Source: Coptis chinensis
Lineage: Eukaryota; Streptophyta; Magnoliopsida; Ranunculales; Ranunculaceae
Assembly: GCA_015680905.1 (NCBI GenBank)
Contig: CM027384.1
Coordinates: 74,247,501-74,311,500 of the forward strand
Length of the DNA stretch: 64,000 bases
Direction of reading: 5' to 3'
Of the stretch, positions 7,501-55,097 are shown one piece after another; position 1 is the first letter of the stretch, and the number at the start of each line of letters is the position of its first letter. Both the position numbers and the translations under genes were made by a program. Below the pieces are notes generated by a model. The model saw nothing but the letters and a program-made list of their open reading frames with translations, searched no databases and had not been told where the DNA came from.

Positions 7501-10157
7501 TTGATGATAACAATTTAATTTGCTATTTATCATTACATTCTAAATGATAATCAAAATGTATTATGATATATCATGATAAATAACTAAATACCATCAATAG
7601 GGTGATATTTGTCAATAGTTATTGATATATCCTCAATATCTGCATATATGCCACTGTAAAATATCACCACAGAAGGGAATATATCCACGATACATATCAA
7701 GATTTAGGGAGTCAATATATCCCCATATCGCAATATTTTGTACTATTGTCAAACATCCCTTTCTTATGGAAATCAATAAGCATTAAATGAACATAATGCA
7801 GCAGCTCTTAAAATGGCAGAGAAGGCTCAGCCAATAGTAAATCATACTACTCACTAAGAAAAGTAATAAATTACTAAAGGAATATAACAAAGAGAAGGGG
7901 ACGCATTGTTCTGTTCAAATGAGACAGAAAAATCAAACCTCGGGCTTATTTCTTATATTCTTCGCTCTGTGAGCATAATCCAAAGTGCTCAGTGTTTCCT
8001 CAAGACAGTGAACCGCTGGGGATACAGTCGCAATTATGCATGTTTTGGTCCTTCCACCAAGGGAATCACGAAGTAATCGCGTAAGTTTGCTATCCCTGAA
8101 TGACACCAAATATCAGGATTAGACTTATGAGAAACAACAAAAACAGCCAAACCTTTCACACAAGTTGTAAAAAATTAGGACCTGTATGGGACATGTCCAA
8201 GATGTTCGACAAGTGCACTGATTACACGGCCTAAAGTAAGTAAGCTTTTGTTAATCTCTCCAGCTTCTCTTGCACGACCCTACATACAAAAGGGTGATGA
8301 GGTAAAGCTTTAGTAAGCCATGCATACTTTTCATGCATTCAACGTAAACGTGTTAATTATACAAGCAAAAGTTTAATCATCATAACACAAAAGCAAAGAA
8401 GATGGGTTATACCTCCCTTGCACCAGAACGCGAAATATTCTCTGAACCAGCTAAGTCAACCAGATTCAACTTCCCACACTTTATAAGCTCTTCACCTTCT
8501 GGAGTGGCTTCTTTGATGTGAATTGTTATGGAAAACAGCGAATGTGATCGACTAGAAAATAAAGAAAGTGTTTAAATGAACATGAAAACAAATTATGATG
8601 ACACTAGAGCTGTATACTAGAACATGTGAGCATTGTCACCTGGACTGTTTGTTTAATAGAGTCTCTGCTGTACGACGTTTTGCAGACCCCCTTTCAAGTA
8701 AGGTGAAAATTTCATTTGCACTTGTTACAATTTCTTCTTCTAGTCCTCGTACAAGAACTCCACCTTTACCATCTTCCATGAGAAGTAACTGTTTTTTTTG
8801 CTTTTCGTCCATACCAAGTTTTAATAATTCTTCAGGAGCAAGCAAATCTGTGATTTCCTCATTATATAGTTCTAAAAAGGTTACTTTCACACTGTATTCA
8901 GCATTTTGACTCTCCAATGTGTCAAAAATCTGTTTGACAGCTCTTGGAATAACCCCTGCCTCTGGAGGCAACTGTCCCTTGCTTTCATTCTGCAATTGAG
9001 CAATAGCATCGGTTAAAGTGAATGCCCTCAAAAGATTAAAGTTGTGAAAATGCATATTCGTAATTGGCTAATTGCCTATCCAAAACCCTGAAGTGCAACT
9101 CAGTGCAAAAAAAGGGAAGGAAAATAAGGAGGGGAGAAGGTCTATCAGGGGAGAAAAGATACCTTTGATTTTTTACTGCCACCTTCCATTGTGTAAGTTT
9201 TTCCTGTACCAGTTTGACCATAGGCAAATATGGTGCAATTAAATCCTTCTAAAACCTCGTTTACAATAGGTACAACAGCTTGATCATATAAATCTCTCTG
9301 TTGAGCTGCGGGGCCGAAAACCTACAGAATACACATTATAATTTGTAGATTATTCAAATGCTTAAACTGTCAGAACTGAATTAGTTCCCTCATGTATCAA
9401 GACTTAAACATCTATCATTATCCAAATTACTGGTGTCGACCTCATTTTCAACAAAAAACAAGCAATGGTCCATAGTCCATGCCGACATTTTGTATCTCAG
9501 TTGTGTGCCACATGAAAATCAGTTAAGCAATCCAATTGTAATGAACTCTAGATGCTAGCCTTATTAGAGATATACGGACTCGGTATAAGGCTAATGTATT
9601 GTAGGGGTAGTATAGTTTTTGTCTTCATACATTTCACATTCAATTGTAATTCTCAACTACTGAATGGATATGTCAGAGCCCTATTAAGCTCTTTCCTTAG
9701 AAGCCTCACTTAAAGCAACATCCTAAAACCAAAGGCATTGTCATTACTAGCCTCTGAAATAGTTAAATGTTTATCTACCTATTCAAAGAACTAAGCATCT
9801 AAAATGCAATTTTTTGACAAATAACAATGTTACACAATTTATATAAAAAAAAGTCCCAGATCTGAAACCAAGTAAAAATGAAAATAAAATTTACCTTATC
9901 AAAAGTAAAAACCCTATCAATTTGTTTCCCAGCAATATTCTGAGAAACAGCAACTTCTCTTTGGTAATCATTACATGTCACAACTTGTGGTGCATTATTC
10001 CTCAATTCATCTTCACTAAACGGCCTGAAATTATAATAAAGATAACATTTTTAGTAATAAAAAACCCTATAAATGATTTTTTTTTTTTTGTTTTAAAATT
10101 TTACCTGCAACGAAGAAGGACCTGAACATTTACACCTTTATCTTGACGACTAGACAT
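1583..10157 (-). CDS. KIN5C: Kinesin-5 motor protein (KIN-5C / TKRP125 / BimC type)
   Basis: Plus-end-directed mitotic kinesin. Family members form bipolar homotetramers that slide antiparallel microtubules in spindle and phragmoplast. Exons on the minus strand, all with GT-AG borders: 10157-10105, 10024-9895, 9321-9163, 8989-8640, 8551-8413, 8279-8182, 8095-7939, 6813-6744, 6659-6583, 6024-5971, 5863-5783, 5645-5534, 5432-5346, 5240-5065, 4992-4831, 4724-4617, 4255-4097, 4017-3934, 3829-3624, 3467-3366, 2932-2823, 2346-2195, 1780-1583. They sum to 3024 nt, 1007 residues, close to Arabidopsis KIN-5C as I recall it. Visible: N-terminal motor domain with P-loop GQTGTGKT at residues 96-103, switch I NKQSSRSH near 227-234, switch II DLAGSE at 263-268; then long coiled-coil stalk; a BimC-box-like TPVR near 950 in the last exon; C-terminus [10 protein letters not shown]. 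The start ATG at 10157 opens [17 protein letters not shown], which matches the family. No break was seen in any exon. Confidence 0.96.
7331..7743. mobile_element. MITE-like ATATC-rich foldback in kinesin intron 7
   Basis: Inside the 1.1-kb intron 7 (6814-7938), a 413-bp block opens with GTACAAAATATCG and closes with the imperfect inverse CGCAATATTTTGTAC. Its interior is dense in ATATC/GATAT words, so it can fold on itself at many points. I could not find a convincing target-site duplication, so the superfamily is uncertain and it may be a degenerate MITE. It sits within the intron and leaves the flanking splice sites untouched. Confidence 0.55.
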
Positions 10158-16710: not shown

Positions 16711-19700
16711 ATTGGTATCAGAGCATAGATTTATGACCTAGGAATTTGTGTAGACAAGGTGTTCAATTAAATTCCTGAGTTATTTTTTTTTTTAGTTATT
16801 GTATGTAACTTGAAAAAATGGCTCCCAAGATGTCAAATGCTAAGTTTGAAGTAGAGAAGTTTAATGGGAAGAATAATTTTGGGATTTGGAGAATCCAAGT
16901 AAGGGACATCCTCATCCAACAAGGTTTGCATAAGGCTTTAAAGGGGATTAAATCTAAGGCGGCGAGTATGAGTGATGATGATTGGGAAGAGTTCGATCTA
17001 CAGGCTTGTTCATCAACTGGACCGTCTTGCTAATGAGGTTATGTATAGTGTGATGAGAGAAGATACCGCTGCCGGTATTTGGCTCAAGCTAGAGTCTATG
17101 TATATGACCAAGAGCATGACTAACAAGATGTACCTTAAGAAGCGTCTTTATTGGTACATGATGGTGGATGGTTCAATGATGCAAGAGCACGTTAGTGAGT
17201 TCCGTCGACGCCTAGTGGATTATTTGAATGTTGGCATGAAGATGGATGATGAGGATAAAAGCGGCATGTTTAATATTCTCTTTGCCAGAAAGCTATGAGG
17301 ATCTAATGACTAACTTTATGAACATAGAATATGTAGATCTCGACGAAGTTCAAACTGCGCTTCTTTCTTATGAGTTGATGAAGAAGACACGAGTTGAGAA
17401 TAACATTGATGCAGGACAAGGGCTAGTGGCAAGAGGAAATTCATATGAACAGAATTCTACAAGCAATGAGAATTCTAGGTCCAAGTCAAAGAAGCTTTTA
17501 AAACATGTACAGTGCTACAATTGCGATGAAAAGAGACATTACACAAGTAATTGTCCTCACCCGAAGCAAGAGAACAAGAGAGATGGTCAGAAGAAAGGTA
17601 AGGCAAAAATTGAGGCAAGTTATACTTCAGGCTCTGAAGGGGATGAGTTCAGTCTCTGTGTGTCCACACAAGACTATATGACCGAAAGGTGGATTATTGA
17701 TTTCGGATGTTCCTATCATATGTGCCCGAATAGAAAGTGGTTTTACTTCTTATGAGAGCATTGATGGTGGTTCCATTTTGATGGGTAATGACGTTGCTTG
17801 TAAGACGATAGGAATTAGAACTATACGGGTCAAGATGTATGATGATGTAGTGAGGACTTTAACCGATGTGAGATATGTTCCTGAGCTAAAGAAAAGTCTT
17901 ATTTCTCTTGGTACCTTGAATTCCAAAGGCCACAAGTTTGTGGGCGAAGGTGGAGTCCTAAATATTGTTAATGGCTCTTCAATTGTTATGAAGGATAAAA
18001 AACATGGAACCTTGTATACTCTGATAGGTAGTACGGTGATAGGCGATGTAGCAGTGGGTGCATGTAGTAATGATTCTGAGTGCACTAAGATATGGCATAT
18101 GCGTTTAGGGCATATGAGTGAAAAGGGTTTGTCTGAGTTGTGCAAACGAGGGTTCTTGAAGAATTTGAAGAAGCCAAGTATGGGGTTCTATGAGCATTGC
18201 GTCTATGGAAAGCAGTGCAGAGTCAAGTTCAAGTCAAGAAAGCACACAACAACATGCATCCTTGACTATGTGCATACGGATGTTTGGGGACCCTCCAGGG
18301 TGGCTTCAAAGGGAGGTAACCATTATTATGTCTCATTCATTGATGATCATACTCGCTATGTGTGGGTGTTTATGATGAAATCGAAAGATGAAGTGTTTAA
18401 GACATTTAAGAAGTGGAAGGCAAGGGTTGAAAATCACACAGATAGGAAGGTAAAGACATTACGGTCTGACAATGGTACTGAGTATACCTATGGTCCTTTC
18501 CAAGAGTTTTGTGCCCAACAAGGAATTGCCAGACACTAGACAGTTAGGGGCACGCCACAGCAGAATGGAATGGCAGAGAGGATGAATAGAACCTTGCTTG
18601 AAAGAGCGAGATGTTTGTTGTCTAATGCCAGTCTAGGCAAAGAGTATTGGGCAGATGCAGTGTCCATGGCGTGTTACCTGTACAATAGGTCACCAGTACC
18701 AACTATAGATTGCATGACACCTTATAAAGTGTGGTCAGGTAACCCAGCTGATTATAGTTTTTTGCGAGTGTTTGGATCGACAGCTTACTACCATGTGAGG
18801 GAAAGCAAACTAGATCCTAGAGATAAGAAGGCCATATTCTTAGGCTTCGCAAATGGGGTAAAGGGATACAGATTGTGGTGTCTAGAAGACCACAAGTTCC
18901 TGGTCAGCAGAGATGTTACCTTTGATGAGACTTCCGTATTATCTTTCAGTAAGTCGGAAGTAGCTGGGCAGAATGGTGAGTCTATAGAAGTTCAAGCTAC
19001 TGAGCTTGAGTTGTCTGATGCAGCAGATGACTAGTTAGATCATGATGAGGTACCAAATCATGGAACCACACAGCAATAGGAAGAAGAGCAAAAGCATCTG
19101 CAACTTGTAGTGGCTGACCCTAGGCCAAAAAGACAAGTTAAAGAAGTTCACAAGTATGGGCACGAGAAGCCGGTGAAACACTATGATCAGGTGGATTTAG
19201 TGGCATATGCACTGAATATCGAAGATGATGAGCCAGATAGCTTCAAAGAAGCTGTTAGAGATGCTCATTACAGAGATTGATTGGTAGCTATGCAAGCAGA
19301 GATGGAATCTCTTGATAAAAATCACACATGGGACCTAGTTTTATTACCAAAGGGCAAAAGGACTATCGACAGTAAATGGTGTTCAAAAAGAAAGAGGTCC
19401 TTCCTGAGTTTGACAGTACTGGGTACAAGGCAAGAGTGGTAGCAAAGGGTTTTTCACAGAAGGAAGGAGTCGACTACAATGAGGTATTTTCTCCGATGGT
19501 CAAACATACGTCCATTCGTGTGTTATTGAGTTTAGTTGCTCACTTCGACTTGGAGTTAGAGCAACTTGATGTGAAAACTACTTTCTTGCATGGTGACTTG
19601 GAGGAAGAGATCTATATGAGACAACTTGAAGGGTTTGTCATTGCTAAGAAAGAAGATCATGTATGCAAATTGAATCGGTCACTGTACGGGTTAAAGGAAT

Positions 19701-20912
19701 CACCCAGGCAATGGTACAAACGCTTTGACACGTTCATGATGCAACATGAGTACACCCAAAATAAGTATGATTGTTGTGTTTACTTTCGTAGGCTTCGTGG
19801 TAATGACTTCATCTATCTCCTGCTTTATGTGGATGACATGCTTATTACTTCCAAAAGCACGGTGGAGATAGACAAGTTGAAATCTCAATTTAGCTCTGAG
19901 TTTGAAATAAAAGACTTAGGTGGAGCCAAGAAGATATTGAGCATGGAGATTGACAGAGATAGGCATAATCGATGAATAGTTGTATCTCAGAAGAAATACC
20001 TTCAGAAAGTACTTTCGCATTTTGGTATGGAGAATGCAAAGTCGGTTTCTACGCCTTTGGCTAGGCATTTTAGGCTTTCAGCTAAGTTTTCTCCTAGTTC
20101 GGTGGAGGAACAAAAGTATATGGCACATGTTCCTTATGCTAATGCAGTGGGCAATTTGATGTATGCTATGGTGTGCACACGCCCAGAAATTTCACAGGCA
20201 GTTAGTGTTGTAAGCAGGCATATGGCTAGTCCTGGGAAGCAGCATTAGGAGGCAGTGAAATGGGTATTAAGGTACTTGAAGGGTACCTTGGATATGGGAT
20301 TATTTTATGGTGGAGGCACTTGTTATGTCAGTGGATATGTGGATTCAGATTATGCAGGTGATCTAGATAGACGACGATCGACTACTGGTTATGTGTTTAT
20401 GATGCATGGTGCACTGGTTAGTTGGAGGTCTATGCTACATACTACAGTTGCTCTATCTACTACTGAGGCAGAGTATATGGCAGTGGCAGAGGTAATGAAA
20501 AAGGCATTATGGCTTCGAGGTCTTCTAGATGATATGGGTATTGAGTAGAACAGTGTTGCTTTGCATTGTGATAGTTAAAGTGCTATTCATTTGGAAAAAA
20601 ACCAGGTTTATCATGCTCAGACCAAGCATATTGATGTCCGTTATCACTTTATACGGGATGTTGTTGAGGATGGTGATGTAACACTTGAGAAAGTGGACAC
20701 CCATGACAATCCTGCTGATATGCTGACTAAGGTTGTCACCGGAGTTAAGTTCCAACACTGTTTGGACTTGCTCCAAATCCTACATGCTTGATAGAGCCCT
20801 TTGTGGGCATGCCCCTTTGGGACGGATGGACTGCGAGTTTCTGGATGGATGTGTTCTTGCTAGATGTGTTTCGCTCGGTTTTATGTGTTAAAATCTCACC
20901 GAGGTGGAGAAT

Positions 20913-31827: not shown

Positions 31828-34800
31828 AAGATAGAAAACTCCTTTTTGTCGATACAATTTTATTAAATGGAAATTTAAGTAGTAGATTTTTTGCATATTC
31901 TATGTTATTGATAGTCAAATGCATTGATTTTATTTAATGGCTAGAATCATGCTAGTAGATTATCATGATCATCTCATATGTAAAAATGTGGATTACTTAG
32001 ATTTATTTTAAGAGATGATTCTTCTTCGTAGTATCTTATTTTTTTTGGAATTCAAACTTGATAGAATGGCACCCGATGGAAAATCCCCGTTTACCATGCT
32101 ACCTGAAAATGACTTATTAAACGATAAGAATTACGAACTTTGGTCTAGGAAAGTTAGGCTAATTCTGGCAGATAAGAAGGTCATTGACATAATAACTGAG
32201 ACAAAAGCAGAACCTATCGTCAAAGGATTAACACAAGCTGCTTATATTGTTGCACTTAGGAAGTACAATGAGTATACAAGTAGAGACAATGTTGCCCGAA
32301 TTGCCATACTTGGCACCATGAGGAATGACTTCATGATGCAGTATGATGGCCTTGGATCGGCTAAAGAGCTATGAGAAGTAGTAAAGGCGGACCTTGGGGG
32401 TACGACTACTGCACAGCTGAGGAGGCTACAAATGAGCTTTGACAAATTTATCAAGCTGCCTCATACCTCTATGACACAACATTGCACGGTGATGAGGAAC
32501 ATGGTTGCTGAGTTAGCCCAAGCAGGACAGGTCCTGTCAAATGAACAACAAATTCAAGCTATCATTAGGTCTTTACCTAAAACTTGGGAACAATTTCATC
32601 TTATCTTGATGCATGACGATAGTATCACAAACTTTGCATAGGTGCAAATGAAATGTGAGCTTGAGGAACAAAGGCTTCTCAATGAAAAGCCTGTTGTTCA
32701 AACTGAAGCAAATGTTGTCAACTCCAAAAAGAGGAAGGCTCCTTAGAACAAGAAAAGTGAAAAAGGGAAATGCAAGGAAAAGGCCAAGCCTGACCCACAT
32801 CAAAAGAAACCTAGGAAGTCGATAGACATGACTAGTGTTGAATGCTTCCATTGTCATCAAATGGGACACTATGCTAGGGCATCTCCTTCTCCTGAGGTAA
32901 GTTTTATTTTAAGTACTGTCATGCTGTCTGATTCCTCACAATATTGGATTGTAGATTCAGCAGCGGCAGACTACATAAGCCGGGATAGGTCCATGTTTGA
33001 AGATTTCCGGAAACTTCCACAAGGAACTCGGAGAGTCCACATGGGAAACCAAAGTGTAGCTGATGTTTTGGGCACATGCACTTGTAGGTTGGATTTTGCG
33101 AGTGGGAGATCCATCCTTATTGCAGAAGTACTCTTTGTACCCTCAATTAGGAGAAATATTTTATTAGTTTTGAAATTATTTCAAGAATCCTATGTGTTTA
33201 ATTTTTTCCAGAACTCACTTGAGATATTTTTGAATAACAGTTTGATAGGTCATGCTTATTTAATGGATTCTTTTATGACATTACACTTAGCACAAACTAA
33301 AGTTTTTATGTCTAAAATGGTTGGTTGCCAATTGTGGCATGCTAGACTAGGACATATTGGACACAATATGATAGACCACTTAGCAAGGGGAGGGTTGTTA
33401 GGTAGCTTAACCTATGTTAAAATGGAAACCTGTGAAAGTTGTCTTGCTGGAAAGGCCACCAAGAAACCTTTTGGGAAAGCCCAAAGGGCAACTTATCCTT
33501 TACAACTTATTCACTCAGACATCTGTGGACCAATGAATGTAACAGCAAGGAATGGGGCTTTGTATTTCATTACCTTCACAGATGACTATACACGTTATGG
33601 GACCGTGTACTTGATGTCTCACAAATCAAACGCCTTGGACTGTTTTAAAAAGTACAAGAACCTTGTTGAGAATCAACTTGATAGGACAATAAAGGCTTTA
33701 AGAACTGACCACGGACATGAGTATCTTTCTGATGAGTCATGAGTTTAAGGAACTCTGTGAAAATAAGGGTATAGCTAGACAGCTAACTATTCCTTATACC
33801 CCTCAACATAATGGTGTCTCTGAGAGAAGGAATAGAACCATGCTGGACATGGTTAGGTCTATGATGGCTCAGGCTAACTTGCCCATCTCATTTTGGGGTG
33901 ATGCATTGTTAACGGTTGCGCACATACTTAACCTAGTTCCTTCAAAATCTGTTGACAAAACACCCTATGAACTATGGACTGGTAGACAACCTGTTTTGAA
34001 CTACCTTAGACCATGGGGGTGTGCAGCCTTTGTCACTTCTCAAAATCAAGAATTTGGGAAGTTGAGTGCTCATGGAAAGAAATGTGTCTTTATAAGATAC
34101 AGTGAGACTTCTAAAGGGGTATATCTTCCTAGGGGAGGATACTCAAGGGCATGTCACAGAAATAGAAGCACATAACGTCAGATTCTTAGATGATCAATAC
34201 CCAATGAGGGGTGAAGTTGATAAGGATCTACGACTTTACAAAGTTCACAACCTTATAACTGATGTTGAACAAGGCGAAGATGAAACTTTCATCAACCCTG
34301 ATTCCAGTGACAATGGCAATGGTCAATCCCAACCTCGTAAGAGTGTTAGAGGCCATATCCCCGAACGTCGGTTTAAGATTGAAGGGGAGATAAATATGAC
34401 CAATGCACTTACAGAAATATCTGATGAACCTAAAACATTCAAGGAGGCTATTTCTGGGTCCAATACAAGTAAGTGGATGGAAGCTATGAAGGAAGAATTA
34501 GAGTCGATGAAGAAAAACAAAGTATGGGACTTAGTTGATCTACCTCCAAACAGGAGATCTATTGGGAACAGGTGGGTTCTCAAGATCAAGAAAAATATGG
34601 AAGGGAACATAGACAAATTCAAAGCTAGGCTTGTTGCAAAAGGTTACACCCAAAAAGAAGGAATAAACTATGAGGACACCTTCTCACCAGTAGTGAGATT
34701 TGCCTCCATACGTCTCCTCTTGTCAATGGTTGCCCACTTAGATTTAGAGCTTTACCAGATGGATGTCAAAATTGCTTTTCTCAATGGAGAATTGCAAGAG

Positions 34801-37010
34801 GAAATCTATATGGATCAACCCACTGGTTTTTCAATCAAGGGTCAGGAACACAAAGTGTGTAAACTGAACAGATCCATATATGGTTTAAAACAGACCTCTA
34901 GACAGTGGAATTTGAGATTCCATGAAGCTATGCTTCAAGACAAATTTGAAATGGTAAATGAGGACCATTGAGTATATGTCAAGACATCTAAAAATAGTTT
35001 TGTGATTCTATCTCTATATGTGGATGACATTTTGTTAGCAGGTAACAACAAAGCATTGATAAATTCCACTAAGGAGTGGTTGTCATTAAACTTCAAAATG
35101 AAGGACATGGGTGAAGCTAGTTATGTCTTAGGAGTTAAAATAACTAGGGATCGGCCCAAATGCTTGTTGTCTTTGTCTCAGGAGACATACATCAAGAAGG
35201 TTTTGGAAAGATTCAACATGACTGATTGCAAGCAAATGAATCTCCCAGTAAGTCTAGAAGAGTCTTTGAGTTCTGAAATGTCTCCCAAGTATCCTACTGA
35301 AACTCAGGTTATGAAAAATGTACCATACTCAAGCACAATTGGAAGCCTTATGTATGCAATGTTGTGTACAAAGCCAGACATCTGCTATGCACACTGGAAG
35401 GCTGTCAAGAATATAATTAGGTATCTGAAAGGCACCGTGGACTACTCACTTGTCTACCAAGGGAAAGATCTTAAGCTGATTGGGTACTCCGATGCCGACT
35501 GGGCTGGAGACCTTGATGAGAGGAAGTCAACTTCAGGATATACCTACATAATGAATGGAGGTGATATATCCTGGAGCAGCAAGAAGCAAACTTCCATAGC
35601 ACTTTCAACTATGGAAGTTGAGTATATATTGCATGTTGCTCGCCCCACACAGAGAGGCGCAGGCTCGACGATTCATCAAACACTTGTCAGTGTTCTCAAG
35701 AGTTGCTGAACCAGTTCACATCTGGACTGACAGCATGGCTGCTCTTACATACGCTAAAGATCCAAAGTACCATGGAAGAACCAAGTATATAGAGTTAAAG
35801 TACCACTACATATGACAAATGATACTGAAGAAGAAAGTGGTTCTACAACATATATCCACTGATCAAATGGTTGCGGATCCATTGACCAAACCTATTCCAA
35901 AGGAACTCTTCCTTCCACATGTAAAAATGCTTGGGTTAAAGAGGATGTGATTATGCTAAGAACACTTTGATGGTTTAATGAATAAACGTGCATTCTTTCT
36001 AGATCGATTGCATTCTCATTATACTGTTTATTATCTCATATGTATGTCAATAGGGTTGACTGGTTCACTCACATGAACAGTCACTTCCATTTTAAACAGT
36101 GGGAGTTTAGCTTGACAAGTCACTAAACCTTATAGGAAGGGTGGACCTAGTGCCGAGTTATGCCCCTTCTTATAATTGGATAAGAAGAAAAAGGCTTTAT
36201 AGGGAAGATTCTGTCTAAACCTACAAACGGTTGTTGCCAAGTGGGAGCAAAGTATCCTTGGAATTGTCATTAGGGATGACAACACTTGCATGGTATGAGT
36301 GGACATACAGATATCTATTGTTGAGTAAACAAATTAGATACTCTTGCCATGACATATTTTCACACAACATGTGTATAGTTGACCGACCACCTGAGAGCAA
36401 GAAAATAAATATCCCTAAAAAATTATTGCTATGTGAGCTCAATTGATAGGTTTTTTGTTTAAGACATATCGAATGATACCCTCCTTGAACTTTTGACCTT
36501 GTCAAGAAAATAAGAGGACTACTCGTAACTTTGGTTTGCTCCCTACAAGCTCTTACTAAAAGGCTGACTGGATGCATACTGGGAAGTTGGTAGAACTCGG
36601 CGACAATAAATGGCGTCATGCAAAGGGTAAAAGAACTGGCGGTTTATCACACAATCATTGATTCTACCGCCGACAATTGATGATAATTGTGAATCATGTG
36701 ATACGTTTTTTGACTTTATGGTGTGGATTCATAGGGATGAGTGTTATTTGTCAAAGTGATGAAACAAACAGATCTTGGGGTATACACACACTCTCCGGAT
36801 ATTAGGTTTTCGGATTCGTCTTCTTTAAGATCACTTTCATGGTAGATCACTGTGTCATGTTTTTCAGTGCGACTTGCTACTTCACAGATATCATAATACG
36901 TGTGCTAGGATCACACGAACCATTTGTCGTGTGAGACACACGAATGGATGAGCATTCTACTTAAACGCTTCTCTTAGAAACCTTCTTCGCCATTGTGGGT
37001 GAGTGGGAGA

Positions 37011-40370: not shown

Positions 40371-43300
40371 GACCAATAGCATAAGTACCAAAATGTAACT
40401 AAAACTAAAAACTGAAATGATAAAGAGTTTGTTTTCACAACAACATTCAGTCTTGGATTTGCTTTCACTATGTCTGACTAAGTGGCTCTACTACGACTCT
40501 CGACTTAAATTCATTGGAGGTGTTGAAGGTGTTGGTACATTGTCATCTCCAAACATCAGCCTATATAAACCCCTTGTCCTCACTCACATTGCCGGTGTTG
40601 GTCCTCTTGGCCTTCTACTTCCTCCTCCGGATTCTTCATCTTGTGGTGGTGGTGCTTTCTTTGTTGTTGCTTCCTGTTGAACTTCTCTGGCCGGTGCTCT
40701 TCCTCCTCTTGGCCTTGTGCTCCTTGCTCTAACTCCTCCTTCAGTCTTTGCTGCTGCTTTAGGTTCAACTTCTCCTGGCTGGTGCTCTTCCTCCTCTTGG
40801 CCTTGTGCTCCTTGCTCTAACCCTCCTTCTAGTCAGAGCTGCTTCAAGTTCAACTTCTGGCTCGTGGTGTTCTTCCTTCCTCCTCTGGCCTTGTGCTCCT
40901 TGCTCTAACTCCTCCTTCCTTCACTACTTGTGGTGCTTCATGTTCCACTTGTTGTTCTTGTTGTAGTGGAGTTGTAGTGGAGCACTCTTTCTTCCTCCCT
41001 CTCCTATTGGCTTCTTCAGGTGGAACATGTTGCTTTGGTGGTTGTTGTTCGGATGGTTGTTGTTCGATCTTTGGTTCAAGATGGTCTTGTCCACCTTCAA
41101 CTAAATCATTACTCATTAGTTAACTACCATTACTAACTTTAAATACTCATTTGTTAACAATGAAAAGTTACCTTGGCCTTTACCCTTCCCTCTCTTGCCA
41201 TGAACTCCTTTCTTTCTTTCTTCGTCACAATTCAAGGTATTGTGACCGTGTGTTCCACACTTTATTTTTCTATGAGTCTTAAGTGGTTCATCTTCACTCC
41301 TAATTCTCTGTTTTTTTGGCCTTCCAGCCCCCTTCTAGTGTGTTCGGGAGGTAGAACCAATTCTGATGGGCTTTCCCAGATAGAGTAAGCAATAAGTTAT
41401 CAAGTGGACTTACTATATAAGTAAGCAAGTGGACTTTCCTCAGTATAAGTAACTAATAAGTTATAGGGAGTTATGAAAGTTCCCTACTAGTATAGACTTA
41501 CTATTTCCTTCCTCAATATTATCAAGTGGATAAAGATAATTTGCATAAGTTGCTCAATGCCTCCACACTAAAATATGGACTGCAATACCAGTAAAAAAAT
41601 GGACTTAATTAATAACAAAAACAAAACAAATTAAAACAATATGCAATGAAGTAAATCACTTAAGGGGAACCCCATTACTTAATTACCTTGCCCATCGGGG
41701 CCTCCTTGGTCTAAGGATCTGCAACAAAGATGTACACAAGGTACTCGACATTTGCCACTCAATGCAAGAGCATTGAAGTTTGCCAATATCAACATTGTAC
41801 TTAGTCCCATCTTGGTGTTGATTGCTAAGTATTCAACATCTGATACACCCTTTATCTCATACCAATTGTATCTCAACTCTCTCTTTTTTATCATGAACAA
41901 CACATTTGGTACAACTTCACCAGGCATCAATGACAATGCCAATTCCCTTCTATCATAGACCATTTGCAGCAAATTTAGGTTGTACTTATCCATAAAATGA
42001 ACCAATGGTTTATCTCGATCGCGCGATATCCGGGGAATTGAAGCTTTCACAAATTATTGGTTAACTCATCACACTTTGATGTCCAAATAAAGTGTGCCCT
42101 AGCCCAACAACTCCTTGGCTCGTCTAACCAATCCAAAGCTTTACTGTTTGTTTTGTTGATAACACCCAATATCTTTATCGGTTCTTGTTGTTTATATGCC
42201 TTAGCTTTTTTAAGCTAGATTCTCCCATAATTCACCGCCAAAATTCTTTTTGAAGTTCTTATACATATGTCCAAGCAATACACGGAAGAAAAAACCAACA
42301 TATACATATTATCATTATGACTGAAATAAACAACATATACAAACAAAATGGCTTATTATGCATATACAACATATACATATACAAAAACAGCATATACATA
42401 TACAAAAAAAACAACATCACCTATTAGGCATTACCCGTGATTTGAATCGAAAGTACTCATCAACAAAGACTTATTAATCCTTTTTTTGCATCAGCGATGA
42501 AGGTAAGCTTGTCTTTATGCATGTCAAGAAATGGCTTCATCTCACATAAGAACTGCCTCCATGTATCCCCATTCTCCCCTTGCATATGAAAAAAACAAAG
42601 AGGGACAATCCCATTCATGGCATCCAAAATCCAATAGCGGTTAAACAACACCCACCATACTTGCCTTTGAAAAACAGCCATCCATACCAACAATTGGTCT
42701 ACACCCATTCAACCATCCATCAAGTGATGACTTGTACGCAACAACAACACCAATGAAACTATGATTCTTTTCATTCACAAAATGTTTGGCAAGGCTACCA
42801 GGGTTTGACTTTATAATCTGCCTACACATCTCTGGGACTAGTCTATAACCCTCCTCATAATTGCCATTGATCACTTCAAGCATCAATGTCCTAGCATTCC
42901 AACTAATCCAATATGATATGCTAACTCCATACTGAAAAAACATCTCTGCTTGTATATCCTTAGGTCTATAATCTGGATGCTCTCTCATCTTATTTTCAAG
43001 TGCTTGAGCCACCCATGGTGCTCTAGCCTGTGTAAACTTGTTCTTCACACTAGCTTCACATGTATGTTCATCATTATAGTTTCTAAGAACAAAAGTGTGC
43101 ATGTCTTTTCTGGTAAGAGTAGCAGTTATAGTCCACTCACAACTAGGATCTTTGCATGCCAAAATGTATCTCTCTCTGTCATTTCTCACTTGTTGTGTAC
43201 TAAACTTGTGCTTAATTGCCATTGTCTGGAAGAACTCTCTACAATCCTCTACAGTTGCCCATGTCATTTTAGGCTTCAACTCACACGAGCCAAACCTTTT

Positions 43301-43600
43301 AGAAGCTTCAGCAACGGTCGAAACCTTAGCCATGTCCTCAATCTCGAAAACATTTGTTGTTCCCATGGACCAATTTCCCAAAACGATGCCTTGTAATTCT
43401 TCTTCTAAATTGTGAACTTCTTCATCAACCATCATTGGATCAATATCATTATCTAACTCATTCTCGGAGTAATCACTACCGTAGGACAATACTCTTCATC
43501 ACTATCTTCTTGATTGCTATCATACCCTACATCCAAAAGTACCAAAAACCGCCCAAAATATTGACCATACCGATACAAAGGCTCTTCAAGATCCCTTTTA

Positions 43601-43765
43601 TCATGATTCAAATCCTCTAACACATCAACACTTTCAGCATGAGTACCATTATGATTCAAATCCTCTAACATATCAACAACTTCACCATGACTACCATTAG
43701 GATTCAATTCCTCTAACACATCAATAACTTCAACATGAGTACCATCAGGTTCATTCAATTCTTCC
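43601..43765 (-). repeat. 48-bp coding tandem repeat in the MULE transposase
   Basis: Three and a half copies of a 48-bp unit encoding LEDLNHNGTHAESVDV-like 16-mers. The length is an exact multiple of three, so the repeat expanded while the frame was under protein-level constraint. Confidence 0.9.
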
Positions 43766-44027
43766 AGAAACTCATTAATATTCTCGAAAGTACGAAAACC
43801 ATCATCAATGCGGGATCTAATTGAGACAAGTGCACATCATTCCCAGATGGCTGAACACCATTGTGCCCCTCAACCACATTCTCAGTCACCTCCTCTCTTG
43901 CTTGTGGCTCACTAATTTCTTCATCATCAGAAATGTCAAAGACCAATGGCTCTCCATTGGGACCTACAAGTGGTTTAGTTTTCGTTATGTTAAGCTGTTG
44001 GACTTTCTTATAGGTGCCATTGGTTTT

Positions 44028-44166
44028 GTTTTGAGTGGGAACCGGTTTAGGTTTTTGAGTGGGAACTGGATTAGGTTTTTGAGTGGGAACTGGTTTAGGT
44101 TTTTGAGTGGGAACTGGTTTAGGTTTTTGAGTGGGAACTGGATTAGGTTTTTGAGTGGGAACTTCA
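44028..44166 (-). repeat. 24-bp coding tandem repeat (octapeptide P-N/K-PVPTQK)
   Basis: About six copies of a 24-bp unit (plus strand TTTTTGAGTGGGAACTGGTT plus TAGG). In the transposase frame they encode a Pro-rich octapeptide. In the shifted frame they read as NQFPLKNL, which is not the native product. Confidence 0.9.
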
Positions 44167-45761
44167 ATGGGAACTGGACTGAATCTAGGTGATCTTCTAA
44201 CACTTTCAGTGACTTGTAAAGGTTTCTTGGGTGTTGTGGGCAGTTGTGTTGGGGTGGAGTCAAGAGGTGAGGGAGAGTTATGAGCAGTGATGCTGGAGTC
44301 AAGTGGTGGGGAGAGTTATAAGCGATGTTGAAGTCAAGTGGTGGGGGAGAGTTATGAGCAGTTGGTGGAGGTGGGAGGACAAATAGGTGGTATTGTTTAA
44401 GTGTAAGCTTACCCCACATATCCATAAGATGTTTGTCTTCTGTTATGCTACATAACTTCCCTTCAATCAAACTTGCAATCTCAAACTTAACTCCTTCACC
44501 AACCAATTTCTGCAAATCCTTTCGCAAATCTAGCAGAAATATCTCATCCCCATCATATTTCACACACTCTCTCTTACCACCCTTGTATTGACTAGCTTTT
44601 ATCTTCCCAGGAATAGTTCTCCCCCACTTACCACCATAATGTATCACAAATTCCTTTACACCTAGCAAAGGATTGGCCATTCTTCCTCTGTCCACAAACA
44701 TACAAACAAACAACATATAGGATAAATCAGTTAATAAGAAACAATTCAAACAAGGGGACCCTTCTCACAATTACATTCAATCAATTTAATGCAAGACAAA
44801 TATAAACTTGCAAATATAGATCATTCAAATGCATATAATTTCAAACATTTACAATATATCCATCCCAAATGTTATTACTTCCTAATTTCAAACATTTACA
44901 ACATATTCCAAATGTTATTACTTCCTAACAAAGGATCGGACTCTCGGACAAAATGTAAGAAAAGACCCCAAATCATAGCATGTCCACATATAGAGTTAAG
45001 TACTTGTAATTACTTCCTAATATAATCATAGTCCAACCTGAATAGTTAAAAATTAGGTTTTAGTCCATGTTTTCTAAAGTGTATGCGGCAATAGACTAAG
45101 CCATGCACCATGCAATACAACAAACCACCATTTTAATTCACGCTTTCTTGAAAAATTAACAATAACGATTATAAGAAGCATCACGAAAAGCCACCATTTT
45201 TCCAACAGATCAAGCTAACACTTTCATGTTTATCATACAACTTTATATAAAAATTATATTTTTACTAAGATTAATTAACATAAAAAACTAACCTTTAAGC
45301 AACAACCTTCAATTTTATGACGACAACAGATGATGATGACCTTAAATCAACGATTATGACCTCACAACAGCTTCAAAACCATAAAACAACGACGATCAAC
45401 AGGTACACTAGATGAAAATCATTAAAAAAAAACACGATCAACAACTCCAATGGAGGTTCTTCATATTTCGTGGTTAGAGAAGAAGAGGGGCTGGTTTGGC
45501 TGTTTGGGTTTGTATGCCAGTGTTAAACTTGGTGTTTTCACACATGAGAGCTAGGGTTTCTGTGAGAGAAGTCGAGAGAGAGAGTGAGAGAGTGAGTGAT
45601 CATTTCCCTCCTTATTTCACCTGTCTGTATTTCACATCCAAAACAAAAAATCTCATTTGTATTCTCGAGATGCGCAAATTTCAGATCTGACGGCCACATT
45701 AAAAGTCGAAGTCAGATGTCGACACGTGTCGAATTAATTTGATTAAATAGAAGCACACGAT

Positions 45762-46454: not shown

Positions 46455-46525
46455 CCCTCTACGTGATTAGAAAAAGATCGGGTTTTTTTTCTTCTCCTCC
46501 TCCAATAACGTCATCTTTTATCTCA

Positions 46526-49081
46526 CCAACATTCCAAGTACTGTGGCAGTAGTCGATATGGAAAGAAGTCACTCTTCAACAGAGTTGCACTTCAAAGTGC
46601 TTCGAATTACTATGTTGCTTCGTTCCTTTATGCTACTTCCGGGGTCGAGGTACCCAGCGACTTCATCATCCATTCCTTCTCCACGGAGGCTTGGGATCAT
46701 GAATCTAATTGGATGGGATACATTGCTGTAACATCTGATGAATTTAGTAATTAAAGCTTCTGGGAGACGTGAAATATATGTTGCATGGCGTGGAACCATT
46801 TGACCTCTTGAATGGGTTGATGTTTTGCAGCCAAAACTTGTATCAGTGGAATCCTTGTTGAAGATCAATGATCAGAGTGCACAACAAAGATATAATGTTT
46901 TTCTCAGTACGATTATATCTGTTGGAATATGACTGAAGTTTTGATAAATTGACCTAGAATTAGCAAAGTTGTAGGTAAACTATATACATCAAATCTAAAA
47001 ATGAGTAATAGTGGGCGAACTTGTTACACTTGCACCCGAACCTTCTACACAAAATTATTCAGAGTTCTAAATAGCAACTCCATCAAAGTTTTCTTTGTTC
47101 TGGACTAATTATTCTCCGAGTTATTGAGAAGAGTACGGTCCTTTAAACTATGAAAACAAACACCACCCTTGAAAAATCTGATATTTCTAGTATCAATTAT
47201 GTTGAGAAATTGGTATTTTTTGTTTTCATGAATGGTGCTAGATCTTCGAGAAGAATCGTGAGAAGTGTAATTGTGTCACTTTAAGTGTTAAAAGTGTGAT
47301 GCTATTTTTTTATTCACCAATGCCCCGTGAGTTGGTCTGTAAGATCATGTTTCAGACCAGCATCGTACACCCGCATAGATATCGGAGTAATGCTCTTTAG
47401 GCTCCAACTTTCACCAAAATGTTGTAAGCATGGTCTAGAATAGCAGGCACGGAGAGTTTATCAGTCCACAGTCCGTAGAACCACAAATAGCCTACAACAG
47501 ATCCAAATCTGCTCATTGGGAGGGGGATCAAATTTGTTGTATACAATCTACATTTGTTTCGGAATACGACGTTCACACCATTCAGTTCGTACTGAGTTCA
47601 CACAACACTTAGATGTGGTGACGTGTCGAAATTTCTGGTCTTAACTTTTACAGGGAGTGACTCTCAAGGACAAAACTGCCGAAAACATAACTCTCAAGGA
47701 CACTTTTTTTTTTTTTTTTTTTTTCGTAACTCACAAGGACCGGGTAGATGAATGTCGAGTATACCCTTGACGGGAAATAAAAAACGGATCGGGTAGATGA
47801 AATATCAAGTATACCCCTGATGCGAAATAATTAACGGCCCGGCCCAGACGAAATGACTGGTGTATTTAGTATGAACAATCATTGTTCATACCTTTTAGCA
47901 GGCGTGAGGCGTGAACACTCATTGTTCATACCCCAATTAAACAAACATTATGAGTGAACAATGAGTGTTCATACCTATTGGAGCTATGAACAATGATCCA
48001 GTTATGAACATAGATTGTTCATACCTATTTGGGAGTAGGAAAAATCACTGTTCATACATCAAAAGTATTCATACATCAAACATGAACAATCATTGTTCAT
48101 GACTACTTTTAATTTTTTTTTTCAATTGATAGGTATGAACATTGATTGTTCATAGTCCTTGGGTATGAACATTGATTGGGTATGAACATTCAATGTTCAT
48201 AGTCCTTGGTATGAACATTGATTGGGTATGAACATTCCCAAGGAACATTGATTGGGTATGAACATTCGATGTTCATAGTCCTTGGTCCTTTGGGTATGAA
48301 CATTCAATGTTCATACATCAATATATTGTATAAGGTACATTCACCTATTTGGATATGAACAATCATTGTTCATACATCAGCAGAAGGTATGAACACTCAT
48401 TGTTCATAGTAAAATGACAGAAAGGGTAAAATTAGAAAATATTTATTTTAATCCGGGCCATTTGTCCTTGAGGATTATTTTCACAGAAGGGTATAACTAG
48501 CATTTAAAAAAAATGTAAAAAGGCGGGGCCAACTTATTTTGTCCTTGAGGGTTACTAATTTTGAAATAGTGGGTTCATGACTTACTTTTCCCCAAAATTT
48601 GTCCTTGTGAGTTACTCACAAAAATCGTGTTCTCTAGACTTCATTTTCCCCAAAATTGGGCCTTGGGACCAATTTCTTGTAACTTTTAAACACTATAATT
48701 ATTCCTAACCTTAGAAAAAAAAAACGCCACCTGTGCAACAACAGAGGAAACAAGGATAAAAGCAGCAGCAATGATACTGATGATGATGACACTACAATGA
48801 AGGTCATGAAAGGATGGCTTACCGTCTATACTTCAAATAATGCCAATTCTCCTTTCACCAAACTCAGTGCAAGAACACAACTCCTCACCAAAATCAAAGA
48901 ATTGGTAAACAAGTACAAAGATGAAACCATAAGCATAGTCTTCACAGGACACATCCTCGGTGCAAGTTTGTCAGTACTAAGCGCATTTGATGTTGTTGAA
49001 AATGTATCATCAACCATCCCTGTAACGGCTGTAAGTGCTATCGTATTCGATTGTCCAGAAGTAGGGAACAAGGTCTTCAAT
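46526..49081 (+). pseudogene. Phospholipase A1-II (class-3 lipase, DAD1-like) gene fragment
   Basis: Plant PLA1-II enzymes are acyl hydrolases of membrane lipids. Two pieces remain. 46526-46890 reads SKYCGSSRYGKKSLFNRV, YYVASFLYATSGVEVPSDF, EAWDHESNWMGYIAVTSDE, and, after a stop and frame shift, YVAWRGTI and LEWVDVLQPKLVSVESLL. 48770-49081 reads MKVMKGWLTVYTSNNANSPF, KLSARTQLLTKIKELVNKY, then TGHILGASLSVLSAFDVVEN and [10 protein letters not shown]. The nucleophile elbow GHSLG is changed to GHILG (Ile codon 48953-48955), so the catalytic Ser is lost. The His/Asp part and C-terminus are missing: the sequence runs straight into an isocitrate lyase fragment in opposite orientation. The roughly 1.85 kb between the pieces is inserted DNA including the dyad-rich foldback. 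The N-terminus is also absent. Confidence 0.88.
47653..48619. repeat. Foldback segment filled with TGAACA...TGTTCA dyads
   Basis: The ends are imperfect inverted repeats: left GGGAGTGACTCTCAAGGACA; right, read inward, GTGAGTAACTCACAAGGACA. A second inner pair of CTCAAGGACA boxes lies on each side (about 47690 and 48465/48535). The central part, 47869-48409, holds at least ten copies of a dyad of the form TATGAACAnTnATTGTTCAT, plus single half-sites. Copies are unevenly spaced (20-110 bp) and lie in runs with spacer phrases such as AGTCCTTGG. No open frame exists. I know of no named plant element with this make-up; a MITE-like foldback is the nearest description, though no target duplication was found. 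Confidence 0.75.
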
Positions 49082-49359
49082 ATGGACTCCAGCAGCTCCC
49101 CTTTCTACGAAGAGCTTGCAAAGCTTAACCGTTGTTCTTGCACCACCTAAACCAGTATCCCCATCAGCAATGATTGGCTTGGAGTTCTTGCTATTTCTTC
49201 CCTGCTCATGCTCATCCTAGCCTGTCTTTGCTTCCTGTCATGGTATTGTTGAGTGAAGAACAAGTGTTCAACCTTGTTTGCAAATGATGTAAATTGATAG
49301 AGAGAGTGTTGTGCAACGGAAGCGATAACAACTACAAATAGCGATAACAACAACAACAA

Positions 49360-50051
49360 CAGGGCCGGCTCCTAAAAATGGTCCCTCTGTCTTAGGGAAA
49401 AAAAAACACGCACACACATGTGCGTATTTTTTTAAAATTATTACTAGTATACTGCATTGCAGTGGGGGCGTGAGCGAAGTAATGCATTTCATAATCATGT
49501 CTATGGAACATTTGAACGTTCCCTTCAACTTCTAAAGGGACAAGAAGTGAAGTATAAGAGAAAAGTGGAAGTGGAACATACCTTCATAATAATTGACAAG
49601 TAAAGGTAATGTACATGGACTTGTTGCTTCTAGTATGTTGAGTTGTTACAAATTGTCTTCTCCAAAGCTAATGTTTCATCTGATAGTACTGCTCCATGAG
49701 ACCATAAATAATCACCCGAGGTTATGCTAATGTCTAAGTCTAAAAGTGAATTACCAATTTACATAGAGAACCAGCGACACAAAATGATTGAAAGAATTAG
49801 AAATATGTAGGAAGAACGAAGGCAATGGTACAAGAACTTGGATGAGATAAAGTAAGGGTAAGAGGATTACAACAATGGCCTTCAACTTGATGGGTGCTAT
49901 GTTGGGCATTTCATTATACTCTACTATTAGTGCAGCAAGTTGTCGTCTTGCGGAACATAGTGACCTACAATTACATTGCATATTAAACAAACACAGTTGG
50001 GCTTTTGAGTTTTGACTAAATGGACTAGCCAAACAGCCGAACTAAAAAAAA

Positions 50052-53200: not shown

Positions 53201-55097
53201 CTTCACGAAGATATCTAGGACTTCATCCCTGTTTCTCATGATATATACCCACAATCACCTAGAATAATCATCAACAAAGGTCACATAATAATGCTTGTTC
53301 CCTCTAAGAGATGCATTCCTGGAAGGACCCCAAACATCCGAATGAACATAATCAAAGGTTCCACGCGTACGATGGATAGCGGTGCCAAACTTCACCCTTG
53401 TCTATTTGCCCATAACATAATGTTCACAAAAATCTAACTTACAAGTCTTAGCACCTTTCAACAGTCCCTGCCTCACTAATGCTTGCAAAGACTTCTCACC
53501 TGCATGTGCAAGACGCATATGTCATAATCTGGTGGCCTCCTTAGCAACTGCCTCTGAATGCTCAGTAACAGCTACTTCCCCAGTAATTGTATTACTATTC
53601 CCTTCAAATAGTATAAGTTATTCCGCCGTATGTGTTTCATGAATACCATTGCTCCCGAGACTAACTTCATAACACCATTTGCAATAGCTACCTTGTAGCC
53701 CTTAACATCCAAAATACCAACAGAGATAAGATTCTTCTTTAATGCGGGAACATATCTAACATCCTCTAATTCCCAAACCATTCCATCATGCATCTTGAGA
53801 CGAATATTACCTATCCCCAAAGTGTGACAAGGTTGATCATTCCCCATCAACATATCTCCACTATCAAGCTCCTTGAAGCTTGAAAACCACTCCCGTATGG
53901 GACAAACATGATAGGTAGCACCCGTATCCAAAATCCATTCACTAGAGTCAATGAAACAAATACTAGATGTAACGGCAAAAGAAAAATTGGAACCATTCGA
54001 ATCATTACCTCCTTGAGCAATGTTGACATGTATTGGCTTGTTTATGCTCGGTATCTTTCATCTTCTGTTTCAACTTCTTGCACTCCTTTTTCCAATACCC
54101 AACCTCATGACAAAAAACACTCATCTTTGGCTAGAGTTTGCCCTCTCGGCTTAGAACGAGATTTCCCTCTTCCTCCACCAGAATTCGGGTGGTCCTTAGA
54201 CCTCCCTCTTACCATAAAAGTAGAACTCGTTGACTCCTTTGACTCCCTTTTATTATTGTTCATCATATCCCAACATGTCAACGCAGTCTACACCTCACAA
54301 AAATTCAAAGATTTCTTTCCAAACATAATGATGTTTTTTATATGCCCGTAATCCTCTTTAGGAATAGATCTCAACAAATGGAAAGCTTTGTCCTCATCAT
54401 TCGTTTCTCCTTCAATATTCAACAAGTTGATAAGTAACTTATTGAACTCATTTATATGCTAGGCCAATGAAACACCTTGTTTCTTTCTCATTTCATATAA
54501 CTTTTCTTTCATAAAGACACGACCTTCCATTGTCTTATCCAAATACTTCTCTTCAAGGATTCTCCAGATTTCCTTGGCCGAAGCCTCATTGAGAACAAGG
54601 TACTTCACATCCCTAGCCAAACACGATCTTATGATACCACAAGCTTGTCTATTTTTCTTAACCCAAATACTCTCCTCTATATCTGATGGTTTTTCATCTA
54701 ACACATTATCTAAGTTTTGTTGGCATAGTGCATCTATAGCTTCACAACTCCACATACTAAAATTGTTAGATCCATCGAATTTCTCTACATCAATTCTCGC
54801 ATGATTGATATTCAAAGTCATATGAGATTTCTCCTTAGATATAGAAGTCGTAGGAGTAATGGTGGACTCTGTCGACATACTATTCTCAAACTCTCACACA
54901 CCCCAAACAATCCACAATAACCAAAGAAACACCCTCTTAGGGATTTCAACACACACTTGATAGTCAAAAGAGAACCCAAATACCAACAACCACAATAATC
55001 AACTAAGAAACTCACTTGAGAATTTCTTCAAACACTTGGACTCCTCCAATAACCACAAGTACAAACCCAAAGTAGAACCTTGGCTCCGATGCCAATT

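Follow-up and report, generated by a model that had tools for sequence, protein, structure and literature searches.

The palindromic array

The locus studied here raises the question of what kind of unit a dense cluster of short palindromes in the Coptis chinensis genome belongs to, and what may read it. Within the window, by which we mean the whole 64-kb stretch of DNA that was analysed (C8:74247501-74311500), a first-pass annotation had reported at least ten dyads in some 540 bp, with additional half-sites. This was borne out, since 11 exact TGAACA-N5-TGTTCA dyads (TGAACANNNNNTGTTCA) occur in the window, every one inside 47872-48406, compared with a mean of 0.02 and a maximum of 1 for the whole window in 100 dinucleotide shuffles. 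The exact dyads start at 47872, 47912, 47955, 48005, 48083, 48136, 48183, 48259, 48297, 48356 and 48390; a twelfth, with two mismatches, lies at 48038-48054, and five half-sites stand alone (47987, 48049, 48166, 48212 and 48229). The core ATGAACAATCATTGTTCAT, previously noted in two copies, is present in three (the dyads at 47872, 48083 and 48356). Spacing is irregular, with units of 17, 46 and 76 bp repeated over part of the array, and, in agreement with the annotation, a satellite or CRISPR array was rejected because neither unit nor spacing is regular.

Nothing in Rfam reached its gathering score across 46500-50000, and a plasmid search, which is a weak test for plant DNA, found no match. 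The 17-mer dyad was absent from the open-access papers searched and, among the matches listed for shorter motif strings, no paper was titled on such an array.

A complete, gene-less Mutator-like element

The array lies within a complete, gene-less, non-autonomous Mutator-like transposon of 1029 bp, whose features are collected in Table 1. The interval annotated before, 47869..48409, holds for the array; as a unit it falls short, the unit being the element at 47651-48679 together with its target duplication. The inverted end boxes said to enclose the array were recovered as two direct copies and, beyond the dyads, two inverted copies and an inverted one with a single mismatch.

Table 1. Coordinates of the transposon and its parts in the window.
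Feature	Position	Strand	Evidence or remark
Whole non-autonomous Mutator-like element, 1029 bp	47651..48679	+	30 left and 10 right ends aligned; target duplications
Target site duplication, left copy, 9 bp, TAACTTTTA	47642..47650	.	Same as 48680-48688
Target site duplication, right copy, 9 bp, TAACTTTTA	48680..48688	.	Same as 47642-47650
5' terminal inverted repeat CAGGGAGTGACTCTCAAGGACA, degenerate	47651..47672	+	13/22 match against inverted 3' end
End box CTCAAGGACA, copy 1	47663..47672	+	
End box CTCAAGGACA, copy 2	47693..47702	+	
Diverged third box ACTCACAAGGACC	47729..47741	+	Repeat family D9
Palindromic dyad array: 11 exact, one 2-mismatch, 5 half-sites	47870..48408	.	Core TGAACA-N5-TGTTCA, family motif approximately TATGAACAWTSAWTGTTCATA
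Inverted end box TGTCCTTGAG	48463..48472	-	
Inverted end box TGTCCTTGAG	48540..48549	-	
Inverted end box TGTCCTTGTG, 1 mismatch	48600..48609	-	
3' terminal inverted repeat, last bases CCTTGGGACCAATTTCTTG	48658..48679	-	10-copy alignment and genomic count of GGGACCAATTTCTTG

When 30 left ends and 10 right ends were aligned, the family borders proved sharp, with CAGGGAGTGACTCTCAAGGACA marking the left one and CCTTGGGACCAATTTCTTG the right. In the fetched loci, the 9-bp flanks were identical at 8-9 positions in 28 of 38 end pairings, and perfectly so in 20. These 28 target duplications are AT-rich, starting with T in 24 cases and ending with A in 23. Most of the remaining 10 pairings resemble wrong inner pairings, three of them in gene-bearing loci; one locus (L030) is off by one base, and another (L044) fits neither cause. 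CAGGG is a hAT-like start, and both hAT elements and Helitrons were considered from the ends, only to be ruled out by the 9-bp duplications. It is on these duplications, together with a linked transposase described below, that the assignment to the non-autonomous MULEs is based.

The terminal inverted repeats of the gene-less window copy are short and degenerate, matching at 13 of 22 positions, and neither repeat analysis nor comparison of the ends revealed long inverted-repeat arms in the window element. The foldback structure that had been proposed is therefore not upheld, as the dyads also show no excess of changes that preserve pairing (see below). Short copies, with both ends within 0.8-1.6 kb, account for at least 17 of the 30 left-end loci.

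Several other features were seen in the window. A class 3 lipase fragment (PF01764, 7.7e-17) on the plus strand, at 48683-49150, adjoins the right end of the element. On the minus strand, 42641-44764 holds a different MuDR-type transposase (DBD_Tnp_Mut, 5.5e-9 in 42641-43495), with more open frames upstream and no exact dyads near it. Copia-like retrotransposon frames, typed by eye, lie in pieces at 17240-19975, 32747-35709 and 53572-54057.

Copy number in the genome

Exact dyads number 24,150 in the 935.6-Mb genome, compared with 82 for a reversed-pattern control, the pattern being palindromic and hence giving an identical count on either strand. The 24-base 5' end AGGGAGTGACTCTCAAGGACAAAA, with up to two mismatches, was found at 465 places (237+228), and the 15-base 3' end GGGACCAATTTCTTG, matched exactly, at 384 (194+190), each with a control of 0. 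A unique tract, the outcome that a genome count could have revealed, is thus excluded. The flanks of the array gave 41 matches for 47640-47900 (from the best 40 of 1481 candidates) and 40 for 48380-48720 (from the best 40 of 1401), dispersed over the contigs. Together with the agreeing duplications, these matches substantiate the earlier suggestion of a transposon family with shared ends. All 10 dyad regions taken from the start of C1 (first 2.6 Mb, L005-L014, of which L009 and L010 are duplicates of one another) match the left block of the window element, 47650-47893, which mostly precedes the dyads. Across the loci examined, arrays hold from 2 to 25 dyads.

Some copies have histories of their own. 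At C2:76297282-76300508, on the minus strand, right ends with an exact match occur three times at intervals of about 1.2 kb, followed by one left end, possibly reflecting tandem copies. Another copy (L018, C4:84592371-84592612, minus strand) sits inside the dyad of a further copy, where the target duplication of the inserted copy, TTGTTCATA/TTGTTTATA, shares bases with a half-site; a near-identical neighbourhood is found on contig C55. A third copy, at 3681-6252 of L014, is split by what by eye is a LINE-like reverse transcriptase fragment.

Motif geometry and decay

Convergent half-sites in 46 loci are separated by 5 bp in 453 cases, by 4 bp in three and by 6 bp in two, nine of these loci having been selected for a 5-bp-spaced dyad, which biases toward that gap. 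The dimer-type geometry read from the window alone is in keeping with this distribution. In the same sample, where one locus (L036) is also part of a joined stretch and two others (L041 and L042) have near-identical flanks, the TA preceding the core is retained in about 90% of 451 dyads, as is the TA following it, and the spacer is mostly WTSAW, with T/A inside it retained too. The outer flanks favour G on the left and C or T on the right, so that the palindrome extends over approximately 21 to 25 bp. Some distances between dyads are found repeatedly across loci, at about 20, 30-31, 47 and 78 bp.

A single change breaks the symmetry of 182 dyads, in 140 of them at the G or C of a half-site, and 105 of the 182 changes are C-to-T or G-to-A. 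This bias may reflect methylation of the arrays; the half-sites have neither CG nor CHG, and CG is found in 36 of 451 spacers. Among 29 dyads with changes on both sides, eight carry them on paired positions (five keep pairing), compared with about nine expected from the single changes, which indicates that sequence and spacing are conserved rather than pairing as such.

A gene-bearing relative with an accessory reading frame

A single locus among the 30 with left ends, L036, continues into a gene. The copy that it belongs to, at 30.93 Mb of C1 (L036 and L056, 13 kb), is the one gene-bearing copy that was read, in part, and its 5' end is the same as that of the window element. Its left end is at position 1502, and after it come five dyads, a short exon, three intron dyads and an exon at 2865-3737 that we term ORF-C, beyond which more open frames are interspersed with dyads. 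A transposase is encoded at 7179-8250 on the strand opposite to ORF-C, the two genes being convergent, with MULE (PF10551, 3.7e-7) and SWIM (5.9e-7) domains; by eye, there are also three dyads in a putative transposase intron and another transposase exon. Beyond about 8.5 kb the copy gives way to other DNA that, by eye, is retrotransposon-like. Exact 3' ends were not found near gene-bearing copies on C1 or C2, among the matches listed.

With exons assigned by us from open frames, none of the 26 exact dyads of this copy falls in an exon, and only one of its 80 half-sites lies within the 3541 coding bp of 7047. The description of the array as subterminal accordingly needs extension: this is not its sole position, as dyads of the gene-bearing copy are located in introns and between genes.

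ORF-C matched no family in Pfam or NCBIfam. A C-terminal exon of its gene resembled a Ulp1 protease by eye, but Pfam returned no match and we make no such assignment. Among the loci first collected, an ORF-C query recovered no other gene-bearing locus; in the genome, at least 139 ORF-C matches and at least 140 transposase matches were found among the best candidates. When these were paired (best 134 of 714 and best 140 of 2532 candidates, respectively), a transposase was located within 6 kb of 50 of 124 merged ORF-C places, compared with 0.2 expected. Only two arrangements were found among these best candidates, namely, 31 on the same strand with the transposase upstream, and 19 on opposite strands with the transposase downstream.

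The placement of the dyads recurs in further copies. In all seven additional ORF-C loci (L058-L064), dyads are found on either side of the ORF and none in its body. Within its final 7 bases, the ORF-C match contains the start of a dyad in L058 and L060 and that of a half-site in L063, and these match ends seem to run into an intron. A 5' end lies within 1.5 kb in three of the seven (L058, L060 and L064). Exact dyads in intron-like sequence were also found upstream of ORF-C in a same-strand relative with 65% identity (L065) and in a relative of a third group with 50% identity (L066), each divergent group being represented by one small upstream piece.

In Arabidopsis VANDAL elements, VANC carries DUF1985. 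A comparison of ORF-C with a DUF1985 frame (hhalign) was co-linear over 160 columns, with equally high scores in 4 of 100 shuffles. Pairing of DUF1985 places with the transposase gave one pair within 9 kb, compared with 0.4 expected. A DUF1985/Ulp1 gene was discarded as a partner: two among 100 listed 5' ends precede a DUF1985 place by some 3 kb, against roughly 0.3 expected within 9 kb, and we took this as coincidence. One of these neighbourhoods contains a complete short copy (L055) with its own duplication, TTACATTAA, about 1.7 kb upstream of the first DUF1985 frame, and no dyads occur in the DUF1985/Ulp1 gene region next to this copy; the second 5' end near a DUF1985 place is at 4.72 Mb of C1.

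Possible readers of the array

The best reading of the dyads, as far as sequence can tell, is that they are predicted sites for a dimeric protein encoded by the element itself. This is based on their strict spacing, their avoidance of exons, their location in introns and spacers, and their presence in relatives down to 50% protein identity. The Mutator-like transposon inserted with a 9-bp target duplication and, under the mechanism that we propose, a protein would recognise approximately TATGAACAnT as a symmetric dimer, on a 21-bp palindrome with half-sites 5 bp apart. The likeliest binder would be ORF-C, the accessory protein encoded by gene-bearing copies, which, since it accompanies the transposase, is a candidate counterpart of VANC. 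ORF-C would cover non-coding DNA in members of the family and prevent their silencing, as VANC does on Arabidopsis VANDALs, and gene-less copies would retain or expand the array so as to benefit as well. The transposase would, in turn, have its sites in the CTCAAGGACA boxes close to the ends; exact in the gene-bearing copy only near its 5' end, at 1514 and 1544, these boxes are better candidates for this role than the dyads. Against this role, the boxes are not strictly terminal, and versions with one mismatch are internal, both in that copy (3069) and in L059, L061, L062 and L064. A point against the best reading itself is that a single palindrome is common to relatives that are 50% identical, which suits a more slowly changing reader, be it the transposase or a host protein, equally well. 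Taken as a whole, with dimer sites, ORF-C as likeliest binder, anti-silencing as with VANC and end boxes for the transposase, we give this reading an even chance.

A host reader would imply that sites for a transcription factor were captured and multiplied to express the element. A 21-bp palindrome is plausible as the site of a host dimer, and arrays that lie upstream and within first introns might serve as enhancers. However, this is difficult to reconcile with 24,150 dyads against 82 in the control, with 10 of 10 regions from the start of C1 sitting in related elements, that sample containing no host site set, and with dyads also located downstream of ORF-C and beside transposase exons; we regard it as unlikely. 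Somewhat less probable still is that the dyads are the transposase's own internal sites, for synapsis or self-regulation. A motif common to divergent groups fits a slowly evolving reader, and conservation within the same-strand group is about 70% for the transposase and about 65% for ORF-C, among best candidates; moreover, dyads are present inside the putative transposase intron. Yet cutting sites would be expected at the ends, where it is the other box, CTCAAGGACA, that is repeated and, despite its internal one-mismatch versions, exact nowhere else in the gene-bearing copy; and the dyads are dispersed through introns and the intergenic region.

It is also conceivable that no protein reads the array, which would then be the passive by-product of functionless tandem duplication of a short palindrome. 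The recurrence of spacings of about 20, 30-31, 47 and 78 bp, and the variation from 2 to 25 dyads per locus, are what such a process could leave behind, but it would account poorly for a nearly invariant spacer length, for assigned exons without dyads, and for persistence of the motif in relatives at 50-65% protein identity, so that we find it quite improbable. Least credible is that the palindromes work as DNA or RNA hairpins, as a foldback, a cruciform or a source of small RNA: the dyads are self-complementary and the array is rich in inverted repeats, but a single symmetry-breaking change is tolerated in 182 dyads, double changes fall on paired positions in 8 of 29 against about 9 expected, and Rfam gave no match at gathering score in 46500-50000. 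We hold this to be very improbable indeed.

If the dyads are sites for ORF-C, it is tempting to speculate further on an anti-silencing system outside the Arabidopsis VANDALs, with a 21-bp palindrome, a reader unrelated to DUF1985, some 24,000 sites and hundreds of mostly gene-less riders, a proposal that we consider possible, if on the unlikely side. If true, a second self-protection system would show the generality of anti-silencing by transposons, and would potentially provide a natural, orthogonal tool to strip methylation at chosen DNA. Should the transposase or some host protein prove to be the reader, the array is still an easy mark of the family, and the question is easily tested.

Comparison with known systems

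Plant foldback elements and MITE-like MULEs are short, gene-less, present in many copies and equipped with internal inverted repeats, all of which applies to the present element; here, however, long inverted arms are missing, and a single spaced palindrome makes up the internal repeats. The MULE-Solanaceae_1 clade is described as having 9-bp duplications, a SWIM transposase, no inverted ends listed, an ORF of unknown nature and an antisense plant mobile domain (PMD) ORF (PMC6446971). By this description it resembles our family in its 9-bp duplications, SWIM transposase and extra ORF, and differs in that the description mentions no site array (PMC6446971) and in that Pfam gave no PMD match for ORF-C.

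The closest parallels are with VANDAL21 of Arabidopsis. VANC21 is described as binding clusters of YAGTATTAY in the non-coding DNA of VANDAL21, in its introns, intergenic parts and termini, where methylation is lost (PMC5735166; PMC10398659), and these clusters as growing and changing by tandem repeats (PMC5735166); it is for Arabidopsis VANDALs that sequence-specific anti-silencing by transposons has been described (PMC5735166; PMC10398659). VANDAL21 (Hi) is listed with 9-bp duplications and with inverted ends that are absent or short and degenerate (PMC6446971). The Coptis family shares with this system the Mutator type, the 9-bp duplications and the poor inverted ends (here seen in the gene-less copy), an accessory gene next to the transposase, namely ORF-C, and a short motif clustered in the non-coding parts of gene-bearing copies. 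The element is thus VANDAL-like in outline; it is not classed as a VANDAL because ORF-C has no Pfam family, DUF1985 included, and its alignment with DUF1985 is not significant. The sites differ as well, YAGTATTAY being a 9-mer repeated in the same orientation, whereas the motif found here is a 21-bp palindrome of fixed spacing. Moreover, Arabidopsis VANC motifs have one orientation and vary by family, whereas the Coptis palindrome is shared at about 50% identity, and short, gene-less copies that carry the array, unlike in VANDAL21, are common here, making up at least 17 of the 30 left-end loci.
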